Shown one piece after another: positions 5,617 to 64,000 of a stretch of 64,000 nt of DNA (position 1 is its first letter; every line of letters begins with the position of its first letter). Source of the stretch: Antedon bifida (lineage: Eukaryota > Echinodermata > Crinoidea > Comatulida > Antedonidae); assembly GCA_963402885.1 (NCBI GenBank), contig OY727093.1, positions 6,645,501-6,709,500 on the forward strand, given 5' to 3'. The notes below the pieces were generated by a model that was not told the DNA's origin, ran no database searches, and worked only from the letters and a program-made list of their open reading frames with translations. A program made the translations under genes and the position numbers.

Positions 5617-8600
5617 TCATACCAGACTTGTGTTATTTGCATCATAAGCTGGCTTAGATTCTTCTGCATGAACTTTGACCCCAGAAAGCTGGTAGCTATC
5701 ATTTAGTCCTGGCACTGCTGAGATTTTTGCCGAAACTTGAGGTGACGTGCGACTGATTGATATCGTAACATCAGGAAGATCTCGTATTTGGCCAACACTG
5801 AAAAATATTAATTTTATTTGATATTAAATTATCTTTATGAAAGAGATCAGTAAAAACTGTTTCATATTACTTTTTTACTTCGATTAACTGATAGGATATT
5901 TAAAATCACAGCTGCTGTAAATGTAAAGTCAAGTTTCAACAACACAAACAATTTTCATTTGAATATTTGATATGCTTTATGTACAATACTGCCTACCAGC
6001 TTACTATCAATAATTATATAATTAGATTATAGCCCACACACTATAATTCTAGAATAATATAGGGAAAAGGGTATGATAATAGAAAATAAACCATAAATCT
6101 GTCTATTATAATTCCCTTAACTGTAATCTCTTACATAGGGGGGTCCCAAAATCAGATTTATGGTAGTATACAGTAGAACTTTTATTTTGGATGTTTTTAT
6201 AAATTTTCAAGAGGGCAAAAAAGAGGCAGTTACTACTGTAACTTCTAAGAAATGCAAGGGAAATTTTCATTAAAAAAAACTAGAATTTAATTCGTCACTT
6301 TGACGAATTATAGGTGATCATTTTTATCATTTTACTGAAATTAATTTTTTTTAAACATGCACGTACGTTAACATACGATCGGAAAATGTTGATGTATGCC
6401 ATCCTATTATATGCTTATAGTGCTGAGTTGTGCCTATATGCCATATACAATATGTACAGTATATACTGTATATCTATATACAGCACTGTAGCATAGGTGA
6501 AATTACGGGACACACATGTTCTAATTTTTTGGCATGATGACGTTATCAAACTAAACTTTAAGATGACAATTTCGAAAGATAATTAATTGAGCAAAAAAAT
6601 ATAAGATTTGGAAAAAAAATTGGCACGTAGAAGCGCTGTGCGCGCTCTTTGAATTGTGTATAACTTTGACGAAAAATATGAAAAAACTACTTTTTCACTT
6701 CAACTGGCCATATGTTAACGTCACAACATCCGATAGGCTTAATTTTTATATGAATTAATATCTACATTTCATCAGCTTTCATAATAAATTATAATCATCA
6801 AGGTAACCTTCAATTCTGAAGAGCTGTAAGATATTCAAATTTACTGCGAAGGTGAAATTACACGGCCTACGTTATTCAAGTTTTTACGCGTGATGACGTC
6901 ATTAAAATGAAGATAGTGTCAACTCATGATAAAGATAATTAATTAAGCAAGCACATACTGAAAGTTGTGCGAAATTCGAGCACACATAACCAAGATGCGC
7001 TCTGTTGAATGTGATAATCTACACAAAAAGATAACAAATCCTAATTTTTAAATTCAAGTGGCCATTTGATGACGTCAAAACATTTTGTACGTAAAATGTG
7101 TACATGAATTCATATCTACAACTCAATGGCTTCCAGAATAAGTTAAAAAAATCGGGGGTCATCTTGCATTCTGAAGAATTATTTTCATTTAAAAAAAGAC
7201 CTATTTTTCACCATTTTCAGAACTTTTGTAAAATTAATGTGCGCATTTTGTCATTTTTAACGTGCTCGTATAGCGTTATTTTAAGTCGGAACTGACTCAA
7301 ATTTGGTGAATGTACTAAGGATGGTGAGTAGAATGAGATTTGTAAAAAAAATTCATGTTTTTTACGCTTTTTAAGTATCGCGCGCGCAAAAACGCATTTT
7401 TGCGCAGTAATTTTTTGAAACACGCAAATGGCCTAATTCATGCTCTAAATTGATCAAAACTTAATTTTGAGCGTTTTAAATTTTTAACGCGCGATATCAC
7501 GCGCATGAACCTACGTGCGCGTGCGTTTTTATTTGCTAATATTTTTACCCTTGATCTGAAGTTTACGTGTAGTGAATTTCATTAATATGTGATAATGAAT
7601 TATGGAGATATGATTGATAATGTGATTTCGCAAAATGGCGTATAAATGTCGTCACGGATGAGTGATCGCGCTGGAAAGCTTATTAGGATTAAGTTATATT
7701 ATTTGAAAGATATTCTGAAATTTTTGTAATCATTGACATTAAACTTTTTGAGATAATTGTTACACAAAATAGTGTACAGAAACAATAAAAAGAAAAAAAA
7801 AAATAATAATAAAGATTTTATACAATAACAATAGGTGATCATTTTATTCTAAATGATCACCTAATAACACAATTGAATACAGTAATTCCAAAAACTGAGA
7901 TCCACTTTAAATTGAGGGACATATTTTTTTCTATGAATTCTATTCTATTAACATTAAACTTAAAAATGATAATCTTTATTTAAATATTTGATTACAATAA
8001 GTAAGCCTGATATTTCTTAACCTATTTTCCTCCCTACCTGGATGTTTCTTCAATTTTCTTGAAACTGCTAGTATGTTGTTTTAACTGTTTATCAATTCGG
8101 TTTAAAAAATCCATTGGGTTTTCTTTGACAACATTCTCTTTTGTGGTGGTGGCGTCTACTGCTTCTGGTTCATTCTCCTCACCGCTTTCATCACATGATT
8201 GGCTGCGGGAATGCGTACCATTTGTATCTGCTGTGGCAGTTTGTAAAACATGAGCTGGGAGCGGTATATCACCCACAGGAACATTTAATGTTGGTCTAAG
8301 GAAAATGCTATCATTGGTATATAATTTATTGACTCTTTTAATATGCTGAACCTAGGAGGAAAAATAAAAAAAGAAATTTGTTTGATCTGGTCATAGAGAT
8401 ATTGTCTCTATGATCTGGTAGAGGAAAACCTGGTATGTTGAAACAGAGGCCAACCAGTCAGGTTTTGAGGAGGAAAAGTTTTTAGTAAGTAATTGTGATT
8501 TTATTTCAATCATACATAAACAGTCCATAGTAATTTTTATATATCATAAGTTAAAAAAGGCTGCGCCGCTACTATAATACAGCTCATTCCACTAGAAAGA

Positions 8601-9375
8601 TTAGTTTAGATTCTGAATCTCTATTGAAGTTCTGAAATCTCAGTCTGATCAACCCTTGATGATAGAAAACAATACAATCATACATGAATGACCGTGCCAA
8701 TAACCCAATTCTATCTTATTGATTTAAAAAAGTAAATATTTATAGCTAGGCCTACTATATTATTTATTTTATGAAAGTTTGTTATTCAACCAGTTGATAA
8801 TTGGATAATGTTATACTGTAAAGGTTATTGAACCAGCCAAAGGTTGGACATTATTGAATAACGGCTACCGGTTGATCGTTTGTATAGTTATAATATATCC
8901 TACCTAGCCTCAATTTATATTCTAATTCTAGGAATTTATTATTTATGATTTTATTTTTATTCTAAATTTTAAAATAAAAAAGGGTCTTTCTTTAAAACAA
9001 CAAAAATAAGAACATTTTTTAATTAATGCACTATGGGCCTAGGTCTAGTGTAGTTTTAGCCTAGGCTTAGATTCATAGCAAGGATCAGTAATCAATAGCG
9101 GCTAGAAGAGCCTTGCTTGCCTGGCCCTGGTCACTCGATAGAGAATGAGATCGAGAATAATAAATCCGGCTTACCGTAGTCCCGTATTTCAATGCTATTC
9201 CTTGCAATGTATCATTAGGAGATACGGTATGCTTAATGTACGTTTCTTGTGTAGCAATAGAAGTTCTTGTACTTCCATATGACCGTCCATAAGATTTGTT
9301 AGTATTTGAACCAAAAATCGAGGTTTTCCCAGCACTACCACCAGACTTTACCTTTTTACTGGGACTCGACGCCAT
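5617..9375 (-). CDS. LYSMD2: LysM domain-containing protein, LYSMD1/2 type
   Basis: Three exons join in frame: 9175-9375, 8038-8351 and 5617-5797, giving 231 residues (human LYSMD1 and LYSMD2 are of similar length, from memory). The start MASSPSKKVK opens a serine-rich, disordered N-terminus. Residues about 49-94 are one LysM: HTVSPNDTLQGIALKYGTT, then across the intron VQHIKRVNKLYTNDSIFLR and PTLNVPV. The acidic, serine-rich linker leads to NPMDFLNRIDKQLKQH, the conserved MDFLxRLDxQI element of LYSMD1/2. There is no signal peptide or membrane helix, so it should be an intracellular LysM protein, unlike LYSMD3/4. The molecular role of this subfamily is poorly known. One pre-duplication gene probably represents both vertebrate paralogues, so the symbol is provisional. 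Intron 2 holds a 1.6-kb repeat. Confidence 0.88.
6278..7867 (+). repeat. 1.6-kb modular repeat, copy 1
   Basis: This copy is nearly identical to those at 37206-38787 and 39849-41435. It begins AACTAGAATTTAATTCG with a hairpin AATTCGTC-ACTTT-GACGAATT. It ends in a long hairpin TAGGTGATCATTT/AAATGATCACCTA followed by ATAA. Inside are at least two diverged tandem modules (about 6496-6848 and 6850-7190), each starting GGTGAAATTAC and containing GATGACGT and GATAATTAATT. No credible protein is encoded. It lies in LYSMD intron 2, antisense to the gene. Confidence 0.9.
9025..9070. other. CTAG/GGCCTAGG cluster in LYSMD intron 1
   Basis: Contains GGGCCTAGGTCTAGTG and TTTAGCCTAGGCTTAG about 105-150 bp downstream of LYSMD exon 1. 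It belongs to the first-intron motif pattern described in the findings. Confidence 0.5.
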
Positions 9376-9738
9376 TTTGTGTGCACTGATTCTGAATGAA
9401 CTGTTGCCAGGTAGTAATACAATTTGCTCAAAATTTTAAGCTTATTTTCAAGAATTGGCTCATGCATATATTGGCACACTGTATATGGAAAAATGCGTGC
9501 CTGTATAAAACAATTTCGTAGTTTGAATACGTAAAAAAAAATATTTTATTTATTTCCGTATTGCAGTTTGGGGAAATTCCAACTAGCTTCACACCGCACT
9601 TTTAAAATAGCGACCTCAATCGTCGATCGATAACAAAAAAGAATTCACCGTCGCCTTTTTGCTTTGTGTTTTTCGTTTCTCCCCTGGACATTTTATACAT
9701 TAAAATTTGACGATTCCTATTTAAATAAAAGGTTTAAA
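9376..9738. promoter_or_regulatory. Bidirectional promoter, LYSMD / GTF2A2
   Basis: 363 bp separate the divergent start codons of LYSMD (minus) and GTF2A2 (plus), so both core promoters and 5' UTRs must lie here. No obvious TATA box is placed sensibly for either gene. This fits two broadly expressed genes sharing a promoter. Confidence 0.65.
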
Positions 9739-47473: not shown

Positions 47474-49740
47474 ATTTGATTTCGCCCTTGCAAACCTTCA
47501 AACAATATATTATTTATTAATTAAATATCAAATATGGAATAATATTTACATGTATTTAGTTATCATAAAGACTGTTGTAGACATTCTATTTAGAATATGA
47601 TGAATAATGATGGTACTACAGTATTACTAAACTTAAAATGCAATCATTAAACAAAAATTACGACAAGATTTCTTACCTTTAAATAAGCAAACTGCGCTAA
47701 TATAAACTAAAAATAAGTTTAACAACAATTTAAATAACCGCAGATCAATTATGATACACAACAGCCACAAACTATAACACAAATTATCCTGTGTGTTGAA
47801 AGTAGCAATTCTGGGCGTCAGTTTGAAGACTTACCGCAGATAAGCAAGTACTGAAAGCACTATAAAATATCTACCAAACTCTGTCAAGGTGATTCATAAA
47901 GGGCGAACAACTTCCCTTTTGTTTCCTGCCTCAATTTAATTTGCAGGAAAACAAATTTGCATTGTTTTACAGACTCATTTACAACAATTATCTTTATTGT
48001 ATTAATGACCTCTCCCCAATAAAAGAATGAAATCAACTTTAAACTTTGGTAGAGTTTCGATATGATTTACAGATTCTATTATCTGACCTTTGTAGATGGT
48101 TGGTGACCTTTGGAGATAGCAGACAGTATTAAAAGTAGAAGAAATTATTGGATATTCAAAAACTTAATTATGTAATGTGTCAGTTCTCAATCTTCAGTGC
48201 AGTTAAAATTTATAGTTGGGCCGCATTAAAAAAAAAGCGTCTACAGTATTCCTAAAACAATAATCAGGCAGAGGGGGTGAAAATCCAATAGGGGAAGTAA
48301 CGCTAAACAAGTTCCTTTTATATATTCAGTACAGTTTCAAATCACACAGACACATACTGTACAGTAAATTGAAGAGGCCACCCTCATATTTAGTTAAGTA
48401 AACCTCATAAAAGGTGCTCAAGGCTGATAATCAAAGACTAATAAAAACTCTTCAAACTTTTTCATTTCATTTCAGACATTCAAGAAAGATCCAGGAAGTA
48501 TACGATCTATCATGTGTGTGGTTTTCCTGAACTCATCAATAAAAAAAATGAAATTTAAGAACTTTCCTCATCAAAATTTAACACCAAAAAATGATATAAG
48601 AATAAGACATCCTGAATAAGGTACTAACGGCACAATGCAGACTTTACACTTCATACAGATAAATATCAGTTTAGTCTACAGACAAGATAATCACCAGGAT
48701 ACTAGTACACTATTGAACATTATCAGGCAGACAGACACTTCTTATGTTTGTTTTCACTAATTACCTATCAAGAGTAAGGTCAATGGCATTCGCCATGAAA
48801 GACACAAATTACAAATTTATCACTTTTTAAAAGTTCAATAAGAACATGTGAATGTGATATGGTATAATAAATTACATGATATTACATGTAAATTAAGATT
48901 AGATGTGGTTAACCCATATTGTTCTTTGCTAGGCCTACCATCTGAAGTCAAATGAGCACATGGTAACTGTATTGTATGCTGGTTAATTGTTCATCTGCTC
49001 TGTACAGGGTATGAAGAAAGTAAATAAAACTATTTAAAATACACAAGTCCAAATATTAACGATCAATTATTCATTGCACAATTAACTTTAATCCATATTT
49101 TAATTATGTAACCTATAAATTTTGTGTTAATTTCTATAAAATTCAATAATATTAAATATACAAGGTGTACGACGAATCAATTTATACCAGATAAGATATC
49201 AACAACATTGGAATCCTCCAAAGATAAATTTGTGAGTGCCCTTCCTCAACTTCAAGGACTTTACTAGACTACTACAAGTCATCCATTCTATACAACTCTA
49301 TTATATTATAAATATAAAGTATAATAAATTATTTATTAAGTAAAAAGAATAGAATGGTCACATAATAAGTGTGCAAAAGTGTATGTCGTATCATAAAATG
49401 TACACAACAAATACAATCTATTATTTTTAAAGGGAAGTTACTGATTGAATTGTTTTACTTTTAAGTATTGTTCGTTCAATGCATGACTGGTTACCTTTGA
49501 AAATGGTACACCCATGACTGACTGACCATCCATGCATTGACTGAAGATAGAGCACAGAGGAACTTCACTAGGCAACAACAGTAGACGGCCTAGCTAGGGT
49601 GGTAGGCTAGCTCAAGTCATCCATTCAAAATGGACGTGACTAAAAATGATTAACCGAACACAACAAAAAATATCATAGGTTACAACCGTGCATGACTAGT
49701 AAAATAAAGCCTCAATATCCTAAGAAATTAATTGCTAGTA

Positions 49741-51664: not shown

Positions 51665-51824
51665 ATGGATTATGTTGATGCAGCTTCTTCTCTAGCTGTT
51701 GCTTCTAGAGGATACGAATATCTGTTTAAACTATTATTTATTGGTGATTCTGGAGTTGGTAAGACGTCGATGATATATCGTTTCTCAGACGATAAGTTTA
51801 GTTCGGCATTTATTCATACGATAG
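51665..51824 (+). CDS. Lone Rab first exon (P-loop and start of switch I)
   Basis: From the ATG at 51665 the exon encodes 53 residues and ends in a consensus donor (ATAG then GTAAGT) in phase 1. After an 18-residue leader ([19 protein letters not shown]) comes [20 protein letters not shown], an intact Rab P-loop, then [13 protein letters not shown], the run into switch I. The longer leader and SMIYRFSDD are closer to Rab3-type than to Rab8. No other Rab exon follows before Rab8 exon 1 at 53341, and its donor phase equals that of Rab8 exon 1. So it may be an alternative first exon of the Rab8 gene, giving a hybrid GTPase, or an orphan from a lost paralogue. Confidence 0.75.
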
Positions 51825-53340: not shown

Positions 53341-56300
53341 ATGGCCAAAACCTACGATTTTCTGTTTAAATTGCTACTTATAGGTGATTCTGGTGTCGGG
53401 AAGACTTGTGTATTATTCAGATTTTCAGAAGATGCATTTAATTCAACTTTTATATCAACAATAGGTGAGAAATCGACCCCAATAACTTGCAAATTACTGT
53501 TCATTAATGGTTATTTCTAGGCCTCGCTTGGAGGCTCTGTTCCAATGTGTTATCCACTACTTCCGCCCTTTTTGCGACTCGGATCCTTCCCTTTGAACTG
53601 GTGGTATACGTTGCTTACATGTACTTAATTTTAAATCGGCGCTAGGAAGGTAATTGAATAATGAATATAATAATAATATATTGCCTATTCATTGTCTATG
53701 TTAGTAAATTACAATTATTATTTTGTTATTTGGCTGTCTAATCATGTAAATTAACTGCACGGCATACAAAAAAGATAATTTAATAATAATAAATTATGAA
53801 CATCAAGAAAAAATAGCTAGGCCCCTAGGCCTATGTTGCAGCACCTAACTAGACCTAGAACTGTACTACTAATACTAGGTCTAGGACCTATAGTATTTCG
53901 ACTAGGGCTTGGTATTAATTATTATGAACTTTTTGATTAACTGGAAGCTTTGGGGAGTGAGTGGGGTGAAAGTGCCTAGCAGGTAGTACAGTCTGCTGAG
54001 TAGTACTAGAGTAGTAGTACTACAGTAGTAGGGATTTCAACCCTGCTGTGAAACATCTATCCACACCATGGACGGAATTATTCGTTGGTTTTTAGTTCTA
54101 CTAAAATGAAATGTACGTTGTAAGAGGATTATATAATAAATACAGAGATGAAAACATTTGTTGACAGTACTACAGTAATTCAAACTCATGTCATTTTGTC
54201 TAGTCAATACTAACATTACAAAGCTACACACATAAAATACTATTTGTACAGTACTTGCTGCTGTCGGAATTTAGGAAAGACAAGATTCATGAATTTCAAT
54301 CAGCGATATTACACAAACTTTAAAAGCCCATTAAGAATATTAATTGTCACTTTATATTCTGTGAAATGACTTATACATAGCAACAGTTTAATTTCAGCTG
54401 CCTATTAATAGCTCAGGTAAGTTGAGTAGAGTTGATATTCTTGTGAGACGTTTTATCAACTAGTACAAAACCGTACCTATTTTTGGTCCTACTGCTTAAA
54501 AATATCAATCCTACTTTAATGTGGGAACCATTTTCGATCGGGAAATACCTCGCCTCCAAGATTTACTGTACCCACCAGATATATCTTAAGTTGCAAAACC
54601 TTACTCAGCTTAAGGTAATTCTGTATAATAAAACCAACATTTTCTTATAATTTATTCAGTAGCTAGTGCCAATAATTTAGTTTCCATTAGTTTGTGTGGT
54701 AATTAGTAGATTGAAATGACACTTGCTGGCCTGCCCTGTTTCTCTTTTAACATCAATCGTTTTCATGATAATAATATCATGTACTGCTGTAGTCTACTAT
54801 ACACTTTGTCTGTGTTTCTCTTTATTATTATTCATTGTGATAACATATTAGTTAATTTGAATCTCCAGTGGGATTTCCTTTGTGCATTAATACGTTCCCA
54901 TGAGCATTTAAAATTACAGTAACTTTAATAATTGTTGTTTTTTAAAGGAAATTTTCATAGGCCTAATTCTGTACTATATCTGTAATAGTGGAAATTTGAA
55001 TTACATTTTAAATGTTAGTAATTCTTGTACAGACCTTGAGTGTACCTACAAACCAACAAATGAATTAGCAATGACTAGCTGGACAAAATGACGGGCAGCC
55101 TTGACACTTATAATAAAATAATACTGAGACTTTGTATAAAATAAATGAACCTGTATTTAAAATATGTTTTATTGTCCGTTTTGTCGTAAAGAAAGTATGA
55201 CTGATGGAATTATAGTTTACTAATATGTATTTAATGATTGTAAGATATAATAATAATATTATATTGTACAACAATTATTTTTAACTTAAAAAAAATATGT
55301 AAATAAATAATATATTATTTAAACAATTGTAGTGACAATGGCAATCTTACTTAATATGCTGATTCTCTTTTACAGTAATAACCTGTAGTATTCAATATTT
55401 ATACAGTTTGGTGTATAACCTACACTTAGCTACACTCAAGGTCACCTGATAGAATAAATAATTTTATTATCAAATTTTTATTGGCTCTTTGTAACTACAG
55501 ACACTAGTTGTGTGGGTAGGTAAACTATATAGCTGCTATTGCAGTGAGTCAGTTGAAGTACTTCCCACTCAAATTAGTACATGTACAATTTGCAATCATA
55601 TTCAGAAGTTAAACAAAACTTTATATATGTAATATTCTTATCTGATTTGTATGTTTATTTGCAGGAATTGATTTCAAGATTAGGACAATAGAATTAGATG
55701 GAAAGAAAATCAAATTACAAATATGGTAGGTTACTCTTTTTTTTAACCAAAAATGTTTTTTTATGAAAAACAATGCCCTCTTTTATCTCGACGATATAAC
55801 CCTGGTAAAAATATTATTCTGATACAGTAAATATATGAGTTGGCCAAGATGACTTTCCAATGTACAAAGTTCTGTTGACACTATCAAACGTTATGTAATG
55901 TGCCCATATATGGACATGATGATGTCATATCACTACCATATTTGTGCATATCACTTACCGTATTTTGGGCACCACACTCTTTTATTTGTCAAACAAGTTT
56001 GATAGTGTAGACAGAGCTTAAGATTAATTAATGAAACATGGAGGAAAAAATAAATTGTTTGAATTGTTGTTTCCTCCATGCTTGAAACTGGAAGCTACTA
56101 TATCGATAATATTTTTTAATTCAATTATAGAAGTCAGAAATCATAAATAAGATTGTACATGTTGTGAACTTAAACTGTATGCATTACACTGGATTTTGTT
56201 GTTTATTAGGGATACAGCAGGCCAGGAACGATTCAGGACTATCACCACAGCTTACTACAGAGGTGCAATGGTACGTAATAATTGCATAGTGGCTCATGAC

Positions 56301-59069
56301 AGGCAGATTCCAGGGAGAAATGGAAAGCATTGCCATAACTTTTCCATGACAAAATAGACCACTTTTACAAAAACCAGAAAGTAGATAAATATAAGGCAGG
56401 GGTGCCGCAAACCAAAGTCATAATATTGGCACAGGTTAAGGCCCTTCTCGACCATAATTCTGGTGGTAGAACAAGTCTTCTCGGATAACAACGCAAAATG
56501 GTGGTCCTGTTTACACATATGGCTTGTGTGCAATGGATTACCCCTTTTGGTTCAAAATTAAGCCCCTGTTGATGTTACAACAGTTATTGGGGGGGTTATT
56601 TAGGTTCACCTTCACCCAATCCCCATATAACTTTGTTTGAGCTGCAATAGAGATTTTCACACCACAAACCAAGAATGATTAAATTTCTATTTTTCACAGG
56701 GTATCATGCTTGTTTACGACATCACAAACATCAAATCCTTTGACAACATCAGAAATTGGATTAGGAACATTGAAGATGTAAGATCAGTTTTTTTAATTAC
56801 AACATGGACATGTTATGAGCTCTGTTGGAGTGAGGTCACTTCCAAAAATAATCAATTATAATATGATTGTTATTTATATTAATTGTTAAAAATGTCTATA
56901 CCGTGCTACATCATCTTTAATTCATCATTAATATTTGGAGGTGTAAAGTCCAGCTTTAATTTTAGCAGTCATTGGATTGATACTTTCTTTGTTTGTCGGC
57001 AGATATTTTAATTATGTAGTATTTTATACACCAATTTTGTTTTAACCAGTGGGTTGTGGAAAAGTAAATATAGTATGTTGTATTAATAATACATTCAGTA
57101 GATACAGTAAATGATAAACCAAACTCAATTGTATTTCGTTGTTTCTTACAGCATGCATCAGCAGATGTGGAAAAGATGATCTTAGGTAACAAATGTGACA
57201 TGGATGATAGGAGACAAGTATCAAAAGAAAGAGGCGAACAGGTAAGTTGCTTTGCTATACAATTCATTTTCAGACAAATTCCCAATAAAGCTCCACACTA
57301 TCAAACTTTATGTGACAAAAAAATATGATGTGCCCATATATGGACATGATGATGTCATATCACTACCATATTTGGGAATATCACTATCATATTTAGGCAC
57401 ATCACACTTTTTTTGTCACATAAAGTTTGATTGTGTAGACAGCTTTAGTAAAGCTCTCCTTTGAGAAATTGTGGATTCCAGCTAAATGTTGATGCAAAAG
57501 ATAGGACATTTAGTTCAGCATTTCATCACACCTCTGGTTTTAAATGTCACCCACACGCCCCAAATGGTGTTTGTATTGCTAGCCACCTCATATATGTAAA
57601 AATGAATACAATTTGTTTTTCAAAAGTAAATTCATTTCGTTGGTTTGACCTATTATTGTAGATAATGATAATATAAAACAAAAAACTCCGAACAAAAGGT
57701 GAGGAAGTCCATTTGTGATTCAATATTTTTCAATTTTCTGAATATGGACAAATAAAGTTCAAAATATTGAATCACAATGGCCTGCCTCACTTTTTTCTGA
57801 TTTTTTTTATATATTAACATATGTAACTTATTAGTAGACCCTCTGGTTTATTGTAGATAAGAATGTGTTACTCTTTTATTTTAGTTGGCCATAGAGTATG
57901 GAATTAAATTCATGGAAACAAGTGCAAAAGCCAGTATCAATGTAGAAGATGTAAGTACTGAAAGATTCATAATTGACATACTACACTACACTAACCATCA
58001 AAAGCATGATTGGTGTAGATTTCAAGATCATATTGTATTATTATAACAAAGTTGGTAGCACCTAACCCATTTAGTCTCGTTGTTTAGAGCTCCATACTGT
58101 CTTCCGGGTTAAGGCCAATTTACACAGACGAGCGGCAACAGTAAGCGGAAAACTGCATAGCTTGTCCCATGTAGAATCTGTATCTATCCTCAACGGAAAC
58201 CACCTGTCCGCTCCGCACTTTGTGTAAATGGTCATAAAGAATAACATAGATTCTATATTTTTATTACCATTACCGCTCGTCTGTGTAAATTGGCCTTTAG
58301 TGTGTCAATTAATTAATTAGACAAAATAATGAATTCGGTTTGTTTTCTTAACAGGCTTTCTTTACACTAGCAAGGGATATTAAGGCTAAGATGGACAGGA
58401 AGTTGGTAAGTTGCCACCTTACATCCTCTCTTAACACACGGTGTCATGTTTACACTTGTTTCAGTTTCTGTTTTCTGAGAACATACTTATTTTTGGAGTT
58501 GGATTACTAGATTGGAATAAAATATTATAAGAATAATGAATGTTTATAAGTTGAATGGTGAGAATATTTTGTTGATAGATTGACTGCTCTATTTATTCAC
58601 CAGAAGCCCATTGTCTGTCTGACAAATCAGGTTTTTAAATTTAACTGTTTTTTCTTTTTATAAGTGAAATATTATCAATATTTATTAAAAATTTTTTTTG
58701 GTGGAAGTGAATAATTCTATTAAAACTACGTGGCCTATTAAAAGTTGGGGTCTATTTCGTGCGTAGCTTACCTGGATAAAGCGACAATAGCCCTTTATCC
58801 TCGAAGGAGAAATTGTCATTGAACATCCCTCTCCACAAATGGACCATGAACTATTCCCTTAGGTGGGAGCCTCCCCAAAAACCACCATCACCATTTCTTT
58901 TCGAGAAATGAAAGAGTAAACAATCAGACAAATATGCAGTGGAGACAATACATCTTTAAAGATTGTAATTCTAAATTTGTTATAGGATGCAACACAGCCA
59001 CAAAAGAGCTTTCCCGATCGACCTAGCGAATCAGGACACAAAACTGGTTGGAGGTGTAGTATTCTGTGA
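53341..59069 (+). CDS. RAB8: Ras-related protein Rab8
   Basis: Eight exons join in frame to 204 residues (human RAB8A 207): 53341-53464, 55665-55725, 56210-56270, 56700-56777, 57152-57241, 57885-57950, 58355-58405, 58986-59069. Start [20 protein letters not shown] is the Rab8 signature; an upstream in-frame GTG was rejected. All GTPase motifs are intact: P-loop GDSGVGKT (15-22), DTAGQ (63-67, catalytic Gln67), NKCD (121-124), SAK (151-153). The switch [13 protein letters not shown] includes Thr72, the LRRK2 target in mammals. The C-terminus is CSIL, a CaaX-type geranylgeranylation site like human CVLL. Rab8 directs Golgi and recycling-endosome traffic to the plasma membrane and primary cilium. 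Introns 2, 5 and 6 contain MITEs. Confidence 0.97.
53815..54035. other. CTAG/TAGTACTAG cluster in Rab8 intron 1
   Basis: TAGCTAGGCCCCTAGGCC, ACTAGACCTAGAACTG, TACTAGGTCTAGGACC and GAGTAGTAGTACTACAGTAG lie 350-570 bp after exon 1. It repeats the pattern at other first introns. Confidence 0.55.
55865..56020. mobile_element. CTGTCTACACTATC MITE in Rab8 intron 2
   Basis: AAAGTTCTGTTGACACTATC at the left is mirrored by GATAGTGTAGACAGAGCTTA at the right; the interior has CATATATGGACATGATGATG. Confidence 0.85.
57286..57447. mobile_element. CTGTCTACACTATC MITE in Rab8 intron 5
   Basis: TAAAGCTCCACACTATCAAA at the left (missing TGTCT) is mirrored by GATTGTGTAGACAGCTTTA at the right. It starts 45 bp after the exon 5 donor. 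Confidence 0.85.
57698..57790. repeat. Foldback hairpin in Rab8 intron 5
   Basis: GTGAGGAAGTCCATTTGTGA and TTCAATATTTTT in the left arm pair with AAAATATTGAATCACAATGG and CCTGCCTCAC in the right arm, separated by about 28 bp. Probably a small foldback or MITE. Confidence 0.7.
58111..58299. mobile_element. MITE with AAGGCCAATTTACACAGACG ends, copy B (Rab8 intron 6)
   Basis: Intact ends AAGGCCAATTTACACAGACG and CGTCTGTGTAAATTGGCCTT, perfect over 20 bp. The interior is shared with 4473-4673. Confidence 0.88.
58750..58915 (-). repeat. Unclassified 'TTTATCCAG' repeat, inverted copy (Rab8 intron 7)
   Basis: Reads on the minus strand: GTTTTTGGGGAGGCTCCCAC, AAGGATAAAGGGC and TTTATCCAGGTAAGCTACGC then ACGAAATAG. 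It is the same family as 16055 and 16626, ending about 70 bp before exon 8. Confidence 0.6.
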
Positions 59070-62005: not shown

Positions 62006-63172
62006 GTTTGTAATGTTTATACTAAAAAGGCTTGTATAGCATGTACTGTATCTGATTGGGTGTGACTTTTTAAAGCCATGAGGAAAAGAAAGACATTACA
62101 GATTGTATTCTTGTTGGGAAATCAGTCCATCACATATTCCCTCATATCATTAATTTACTCTTATGAAAGACACATTTTAACACGCACGTTCAAAAGCTGA
62201 TGATAATTGTTACGGCTTTTGTATGTGCGCATTTAAATGCGGTTAATAATTGGTCCACTTTTCGTCTCATAATGTCACTGATGCTCTAGTTGTAAGTGCG
62301 ATTAATTTTATTCAATTTATTATGTAGAAGTGAGAGTCTATAATGGGCTCACCTCTGCCTTTCTGACTACACCAATAAAATTTAGAGTAACCAAGTATAA
62401 AATACTGTCAATGTGTCTCATTTAACTTGTTTTTATAGTACTTGTATTCTGCGATTATGAATATTTTTAGTAGTTCAGCAGTGGAATGCCCAGGTAAGTA
62501 ATTTCGCTGAATGGATAATGGAGAGAAAATGCGAAGAATTAAAAAATCTTGATGGTGGACGTCAAATCAACTGAGAATGTAGTCACAGTAGGTATGGTAT
62601 TATGAAAATGTCCGATTTTGAACATAATCAACTGATGAGATCACTTTACGTAAACAAAAAAACAGTTGGATTTATTTCAAAAGTGAGGGTGAGTTACGGA
62701 TGTGGTAAGGGGAAATTAGTTCCATAATTGGGGTTCAAGGACGGAAAACGAACTGCCACCAGTCCGCAGCCTGGTTTTCATAAGTAACCTAATATTCAGA
62801 CCAATTTTTCAATTATCTGTATTTAAAATAGTGTATTTTATAAAGTATACATGGATTTATATTTTATTCTATAATGTAACCTAGTGAATTTCATTCATTT
62901 GTATATTTGTAATTATGTTGTAATTATGGTGGTCAACAATTAATTTCACCGGAATTATCTTACAAAATGCGCCCCAAAAGTTTTTAATAATTTGATTGGT
63001 TGTTTAGTTATGCATATAATTAATAAACACTGTGTAGACTCGCATTCCTTCTCGTCCCGGATCATCGCCTAAAAATAGTCATGACTTTGTCTGCGCATGT
63101 GCATTGAAAAGGACAACAATAACAACAGCACATGGTGTGTGTGGCGTTAAGTTTCTTTGCACAAACATTAAA

Positions 63173-63967
63173 ATGGCCAAGAATCCCGTCCCCAAATCTT
63201 ATGATTTTCTTTTTAAATGTGTGGTTATTGGAGACTATAGTGTTGGGAAGACTTCAATAGTAATGAGGTTTACAGATGATACTTTTGATACGTTTCCAGC
63301 TACTATAGGTAAGAGTATGTAGACTAGCTAGCTAACTAAGAATTTTGTAGTACTAGTTAGGCCTAGGCAGTTTAGTTTGGCCTTAATGAAGAAAACACAC
63401 CAACCACCCTTTTCCACAGTAGTCTACTCTGGGCAGAATGTACCATTCAGCATGCAGCTAGGCCTATCCTCTACTGTAGTTTAAATGGTTTAGAGGAGTA
63501 GGGCCAGGTTGCTAAGACTGAAGCCAGCAGGGATTAACCTCAAACTTTCAAATGGAATGAGGCCTACACCCCACATAACACTGTTCAATTAATTATTACA
63601 TTGCGCATTAATTAACATTTTTACTTTGTGCAGGAGTTGATTTCAAGCTTAGGACAATAGAATTAGATGGAAAGAAAATCAAATTACAAATTTGGTAAGT
63701 TATGGTAGGCTTATGGGTATGGTAGGCCTACAATCAGTAATTGAAAATTGAGATTGGATTTAATTGAAGATCGATTCAATTTATCTGCTTTTTAGGGATT
63801 TACGAATGTCTGGAACCCGCTGCAAGAGTGTTTCACTTGTTTATTACAGAGGTACAGGGGTAATTTAAATTTATTTATTTGCTAAATGCTCTGTTTATTT
63901 TAGGGATACACCTGCAGGAGAAAGAAGAAGAACTTACGTTCTTCCATCACATTACAGAGGAACAAAG
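63173..63967 (+). CDS. Divergent Rab8-like GTPase with alternative switch II exons (5' part)
   Basis: Exon 1 (63173-63308) starts MAKNPVPKSYDFLFKCVVIG and has an altered but motif-complete P-loop, GDYSVGKTS (20-28; Rab consensus GDSGVGKTS). It ends PATIG in phase 1. Exon 2 (63634-63694) encodes [19 protein letters not shown] and differs from Rab8 exon 2 at only 3 of 61 bases. It can splice to either of two 64-nt exons, 63796-63859 or 63904-63967, both in the switch II position. Later exons lie off the right edge, so G4/G5 and the C-terminus are unseen. Open frames and good splice signals argue against a plain pseudogene. Upstream in-frame TTG was not taken as start. Function unknown; presumably a membrane-traffic GTPase or a Rab-like effector trap. 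Confidence 0.8.
63321..63500. other. CTAG/AGGCCTAG cluster in intron 1 of the divergent Rab gene
   Basis: GACTAGCTAGCTAACTAAG, GTAGTACTAGTTAGGCCTAG and GCAGCTAGGCCTATCC lie 10-190 bp after exon 1, as in other first introns. Confidence 0.55.
63796..63859 (+). CDS. Switch II exon variant a
   Basis: After acceptor TTTTTAG it completes Trp and encodes DLRMSGTRCKSVSLVYYRGT then G, with donor GTAAT. Aligned from the shared YYRG backward, the Rab Gln67 position is Gly and the Thr72 position is Ser. DTAGQ is not preserved (DLRMSG). It is 21 residues after the Trp, against 20 in Rab8. Confidence 0.75.
63904..63967 (+). CDS. Switch II exon variant b
   Basis: After acceptor ATTTTAG it completes Trp and encodes DTPAGERRRTYVLPSHYRGT then K, with donor GTAAT. 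Aligned from HYRG backward, Gln67 is Glu and Thr72 is Tyr. Length and phase equal variant a, and only 44 nt separate the two exons. Confidence 0.75.
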
Positions 63968-64000
63968 GTAATTGAATAAATTGCTATTTTAAATTAGCCA

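Follow-up and report, generated by a model that had tools for sequence, protein, structure and literature searches.

Whether a Rab GTPase gene can exchange its switch II region by splicing in one or the other of two neighbouring, strongly different exons is the question raised by the right-hand end of the 64,000-nucleotide stretch of DNA analysed here (the window). An earlier note on this DNA had described two consecutive 64-nt exons, referred to here as 3a and 3b, as apparently mutually exclusive choices, and both are indeed present, in identical phase and 44 nt apart (Table 1), each continuing the preceding exon E2 (63634-63694) after a Trp codon divided as TG and G, as had also been proposed. 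The window stops shortly past 3b, as described, so that its right edge is open and the gene runs beyond it. Of the interpretation offered then, the matching length and phase, the frame sums and a gap seemingly too short for ordinary splicing are retained, whereas a complete Rab8 gene lying upstream had been overlooked. In our reading the two exons probably belong to a tandem, part-seen paralogue of Rab8 with at least two copies of the switch II exon, exactly one of which would be spliced in.

Table 1. Rab-related features predicted in the window (positions counted from its first nucleotide)
Feature	Position	Strand	Description
R0, P-loop/switch I exon with its own ATG	51665..51824	+	phase fits Rab8 exon 2 (55665)
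Complete Rab8 gene	53341..59069	+	8 exons, 204 residues, ends CSIL; PDB Rab-8A E=1.9e-111
Rab8 exons 1-4	53341-53464, 55665-55725, 56210-56270, 56700-56777	+	
Rab8 exons 5-8	57152-57241, 57885-57950, 58355-58405, 58986-59069	+	
Canonical switch II exon (Rab8 exon 3)	56210..56270	+	61 nt, begins (W), has DTAGQE
E1, exon 1 of the divergent Rab8-like gene	63173..63308	+	ATG, P-loop GDYSVGKTS, switch I DTFPATIG
E2, exon 2 of the divergent gene	63634..63694	+	61 nt; 58/61 bases as in Rab8 exon 2
Exon 3a (switch II variant)	63796..63859	+	64 nt, (W)DLRMSGTRCKSVSLVYYRGTG
3a/3b gap	63860..63903	+	44 nt
Exon 3b (switch II variant)	63904..63967	+	64 nt, (W)DTPAGERRRTYVLPSHYRGTK

The complete Rab8 gene alongside provides a built-in control, and the divergent gene starts 4.1 kb behind it. 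The upstream Rab exons were found with a profile built on 47 prokaryotic Rab-like loci and run on 2926 reading frames of the window; these loci, mostly Lokiarchaeal, served only as the profile and as a yardstick for the G3 motif. Exons 3a and 3b share their borders and phases with Rab8 exon 3 and are each one codon longer, and a scan of splice sites and frames revealed no second switch II exon within the canonical gene itself. A stretch near 48768 that resembles exon 2 (blastn E 0.009) was discarded, having stops in all three frames read and no Rab reading. Elsewhere in the window, which to judge by its genes and introns appears to be of animal origin and has a GC content of about 32%, Pfam searches (among them scans of six frames over 15-45 kb and two minus frames over 1-15 kb) detected on the minus strand a LysM domain in gene pieces at 8034-9435, which we take to be LYSMD-like, a Destabilase domain at about 13.3-13.5 kb (E 4.9e-24), presumably an i-type lysozyme, a weak LSM domain at about 18.5-18.6 kb (E 2.6e-05) and a weak G-patch domain at about 1.3 kb (E 2.9e-06), and on the plus strand a signal peptide peptidase (Peptidase_A22B) domain at about 25.0-25.3 kb (E 2.5e-22).

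When joined to either of the two variants, E1, which has an in-frame stop on its 5' side at 63035, and E2 encode 87 residues that make up the first half of a small GTPase (PF00071, the Ras family of Pfam), for which the best PDB match is Rab-8A (E=7.4e-27 for the form with 3b, 2.3e-25 for that with 3a), most of the aligned length being supplied by exons 1-2. The P-loop (G1) and the conserved switch I Thr by which the Rab8 group was assessed are both found in E1 (GDYSVGKTS and PATIG), and relative to Rab8A switch I is short by one residue and switch II longer by one. The G4/G5 motifs and any C-terminal prenylation site of this gene would fall past the right edge. Divergence from Rab8 is unequal between the two exons: E1 differs with a dN of 0.28 and a dS of 0.96 (dN/dS about 0.3; 36 codons, from YDF onward) and E2 with a dS of 0.10 (19 codons with three differences, of which one is synonymous), a difference that gave p=0.014 in a Fisher test on rounded synonymous counts. 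The introns flanking exon 2 in the two genes match at 23 of 60 positions upstream and 17 of 60 downstream, the baseline for random 60-mers being a mean of 17 matches and a maximum of 30 (5000 draws). The near-identity of exon 2, combined with a diverged exon 1 and unlike introns, therefore suggests either a local gene conversion that copied exon 2 or an unusual constraint on this exon. Imperfect inverted repeats are located on either side of E2 (63560-63597 and 63711-63750), and their folding was no better than that of shuffled sequences (z -0.62, 57/200). A Pfam read-through scan of a single frame of 63500-64000 gave no match, probably because the exons occupy different frames.

Exons 3a and 3b differ from each other at 34 of 64 bases and at 14 of 21 residues, their ungapped identity (30/64) being distributed as 4/4 next to the acceptor, 12/42 in the core and 14/18 at the YRGT end. 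They share a 26-nt direct repeat, 85% identical and with a spacing of 108, and have the adjacency, homology and equal length and phase that would be looked for in tandem mutually exclusive exons. The similarity of their core proteins is at chance level, 1496 of 5000 shuffles reaching the same score, so that direct kinship between them rests on the exon ends, that is, on the 26-nt repeat. When compared with Rab8 exon 3, the core of 3b scores beyond chance (9/5000 shuffles) and that of 3a shows a weaker resemblance (123/5000), with 39/61 and 38/60 matching bases for 3a and 3b respectively in optimised gapped alignments; each of the two thus looks like a derivative of that exon. Compensated frameshifting of Rab8 exon 3 was also considered as an origin and rejected, both for 3a, where it was attractive in the alignment and the margin was equalled by 637 of 2000 codon shuffles, and for 3b, where 1879 of 2000 did so.

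One part of the initial description did not survive, namely that both exons run from the Trp before DTAGQ. DTAGQ is encoded by neither, 3a reading DLRMSGTR and 3b DTPAGERR, with the DTAGQE of Rab8 corresponding to DLRMSGT in the former and to DTPAGE in the latter, and the G3 motif, DxxG followed by the catalytic Gln, is therefore absent from both (DLRMSG in 3a, DTPAG in 3b). A DxxG-like regular expression matched in 42 of the 47 prokaryotic relatives; among the remaining five, the alignment of one (L046) ended early, another (L034) has DxxG without the next residue and three (L020, L024 and L037) have a changed G3 motif. As Glu replaces Gln in most of these relatives, the spacing of the Gly is the more telling loss. 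Since both the DxxG spacing and the Gln are missing from both exons, 3a and 3b are not ordinary alternative switches, and the loss of DxxG could reflect decay instead of new function. Rab-like matches L002, L032, L033 and L046 came from metagenome-assembled genomes, three of Gammaproteobacteria and one of Desulfosporosinus, and may be bacterial genes or eukaryotic contamination; in viral contigs five stretches fitted a pattern, none of which was confirmed.

The splice sites had been judged good, which is true of the acceptors, ranked in the top 0.5% (3a) and top 0.2% (3b) of 6433 AG sites on both strands, and less so of the donors, which are weaker (top 6.2% and top 2.1% of 7129 GT sites), the scores having been trained on Rab8 and R0 sites. 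Both donors read GTAATT and lack the +5 G that is present in 10 other donors of the locus (seven in Rab8, and those of R0, E1 and E2), an absence that fits regulated sites and equally fits poor use. The expectation that inclusion of both exons shifts the frame is borne out: E1+E2+3a+3b amount to 325 nt (1 mod 3), whereas E1 and E2 with either 3a or 3b amount to 261 nt and stay in frame, and E1+E2 alone, with both exons skipped, is out of frame.

A structural bar to joining 3a with 3b is thus found, the steric part of which is predicted from the positions of candidate branch points. The last AG before the 3b acceptor ends at 63857, within 3a, and by the AG-exclusion rule, the usual constraint on branch point position, the 3b branch point should fall in the gap and, if placed 12 nt or more ahead of the AG end, no more than 27 nt from the 3a donor, a limit that holds for every A in this part of the gap. 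Against the steric argument, introns of near 44 nt are spliced in some animals, and against the gap being too short, the second intron of the divergent gene is itself just 101 nt long. All seven Rab8 introns measure 374-2200 nt, so that gene gives no hint of tiny introns being usual, and the 44-nt gap as a whole is below the threshold of about 50 nt cited in the available text of PMC7969005. Positions 63858-63869, over the 3a donor, are 92% complementary along 12 nt to 63988-63999 downstream of 3b, a pairing that is possibly due to chance, with masking of the donor being conceivable. Of 100 shuffles of the region 63695-64000, just 1 folded as well as the actual sequence (z -2.64), part of this signal being supplied by a hairpin in intron 2.

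How readily such exons arise by chance can be gauged from the window itself, where 18 stretches on both strands passed a filter consisting of an acceptor, an open in-phase segment of 55-70 nt and a donor. Three of these end in [YHF]YRG, namely Rab8 exon 3, which passes by construction as part of the training set of the splice score, 3a and 3b, whereas 40 Markov-resampled windows gave a mean of 4.8 candidates and none ending in YRG, a criterion chosen after the exons had been seen.

It is unlikely, in our assessment, that only 3a or 3b (or a canonical exon past the edge) is used, an old exon duplication having left the other as a relic or as a cryptic exon that is seldom spliced in. The weak donors and the disappearance of the G3 motif from both exons agree with such an origin, while strong acceptors, GT donors, an open frame and a length of 1 mod 3, all retained in both, do not. 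Decay was simulated from Rab8 exon 3 with two indels per copy and 0.2-0.6 substitutions per site, at rates that were chosen and not fitted and with the copies taken as independent despite their common repeat; under these settings the probability that both copies retained their splice sites and stayed open was 0.011 to 0.0003, and 4e-4 to 1e-7 when YRG had to be retained too. It is thus very unlikely under this model that both exons persisted neutrally with splice sites, frame and YRG all preserved. A single decaying copy retained sites and open frame with a probability of 0.107-0.017, so that the presence of one relic exon is less firmly disfavoured.

Were the entire downstream copy instead a dying Rab8 pseudogene without functional protein, the divergence of its exon 1 from Rab8, in both dN and dS, and the one-residue deletion in switch I and insertion in switch II relative to Rab8A would be in keeping with this; we hold it to be quite improbable given the low dN/dS of exon 1, the intact P-loop, frames and GT/AG sites in the visible part, and an exon 2 nearly identical to that of Rab8. 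Double inclusion, as it shifts the frame, might also lead to RNA decay, the extra exon then being a poison exon that tunes expression and not a source of two proteins, but either exon alone is in frame, joint inclusion is disfavoured by the 44-nt gap and an open Rab-like frame would be unnecessary for a poison exon, all of which makes this explanation highly improbable.

If the divergent gene is, as we prefer to think, a Rab8 paralogue with alternative switch II exons, exactly one of 3a and 3b would link exon 2 to a phase-0 exon further downstream. Splicing of 3a to 3b would be blocked because the 3b branch point would be no farther than 27 nt from the 3a donor, and transcripts with both exons or with neither would be frame-shifted. 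GEFs, GAPs, GDI and effectors all read switch II of small GTPases, and a swap of the G3/switch II segment would be expected to yield isoforms differing in nucleotide handling as well as in their GEF, GAP, GDI and effector partners. Since neither variant retains the Gly spacing of DxxG or the Gln, a normal Rab8 cycle appears less likely than fast cycling, dominant-negative behaviour, or intrinsic GTP hydrolysis that is slow or missing altogether. Past the edge of the window there may be a canonical switch II exon.

Among the closest known systems are the RAB6A isoforms, which involve tandem duplication of the exon for the switch II region and in which the G3 motif is intact in both RAB6A and RAB6A'. 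According to the available text of PMC1950890 these isoforms arise by a substitution-type splicing event, and the difference of three amino acids between Rab6a and Rab6a', mentioned in the earlier note, agrees with the text of PMC3578815. The present gene would likewise be a Rab gene with two isoforms produced by exon substitution, here predicted, although 3a and 3b differ at many more positions than the three residues of RAB6A and both have lost the DxxG spacing and Gln.

Local duplication of GTPase exons has also been reported in G-alpha genes of cephalochordates and vertebrates, where mutually exclusive exons are described for preGNAI (exon 6), preGNAQ (exon 5) and GNAO (exons 7-8), in regions linked by the authors to effector or receptor interfaces, and where the duplicate exons of preGNAS are 80-81% alike in protein (PMC5896119, available text). 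Exclusivity is reported there and predicted here; G-alpha is a different GTPase class from Rab, and G3 loss is not mentioned for it in that text. In RAC1B, which includes RAC1 exon 3b, faster exchange, impaired hydrolysis and no interaction with Rho-GDI are described in the portion of PMC6356296 at hand; both cases concern splicing at or near switch II, with an altered nucleotide cycle known for RAC1B and expected for 3a and 3b, but RAC1B inserts a 19-residue cassette just behind switch II, whereas 3a and 3b would replace one segment. With regard to mechanism, the exclusivity of OGDH exons 4a and 4b is attributed in the available text of PMC7969005 to a branch point and 5' splice site separated by less than about 50 nt, given as the steric threshold for both complexes assembling. 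The predicted branch-point distance in the present gene is under the same threshold, being derived from candidate As in the sequence, while OGDH, unlike the Rab8 copy, encodes a metabolic enzyme and has experimentally mapped branch points.

Among the literature matches listed, judged by titles and the beginnings of abstracts, no Rab gene with exclusive and strongly different switch II exons was seen, which is weak evidence of absence, subscription papers and preprints being mostly outside the scope. In the available texts, 'rab' in PMC9741552 stands for rabbit or the authors' references and no GTPase appears, PMC9714508 contains neither 'mutually' nor 'tandem', and PMC9013439 contains neither Rab nor GTPase. 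Alternative or exclusive GTPase exons and steric exclusive splicing are already known, and a strongly different pair of Rab switch II exons is not named among the matches listed.

Upstream of Rab8, the exon R0 has a donor within the top 0.03% of GT sites (R0 itself being among the training sites of the score) and Rab-8A as its best match, and its dS to the normal Rab8 first exon is 1.76. A profile search found no exon-2-like piece between R0 and Rab8 exon 2, and R0 is considered a candidate alternative first exon of Rab8. Within 12.3 kb there are thus three differing first halves and three differing switch segments. It is conceivable, though rather unlikely, that a longer switch II array begins with 3a and 3b and that the Rab8 locus also has alternative P-loop/switch I exons, with halves and switches being mixed to give a family of Rab8-like proteins; the 108-nt spacing would then put the start of the next exon near 64012, just outside the window.

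If such an array exists, some of these proteins, with switches that do not hydrolyse GTP or are otherwise rewired, would act alongside normal Rab8 as its competitors or as platforms dedicated to effectors. A splice-swapped switch II without G3 would show how far the rewiring of a Rab can go while the gene is kept, and 3a and 3b would constitute a natural pair with which Rab-like function without the usual GTP-hydrolysis cycle can be tested.
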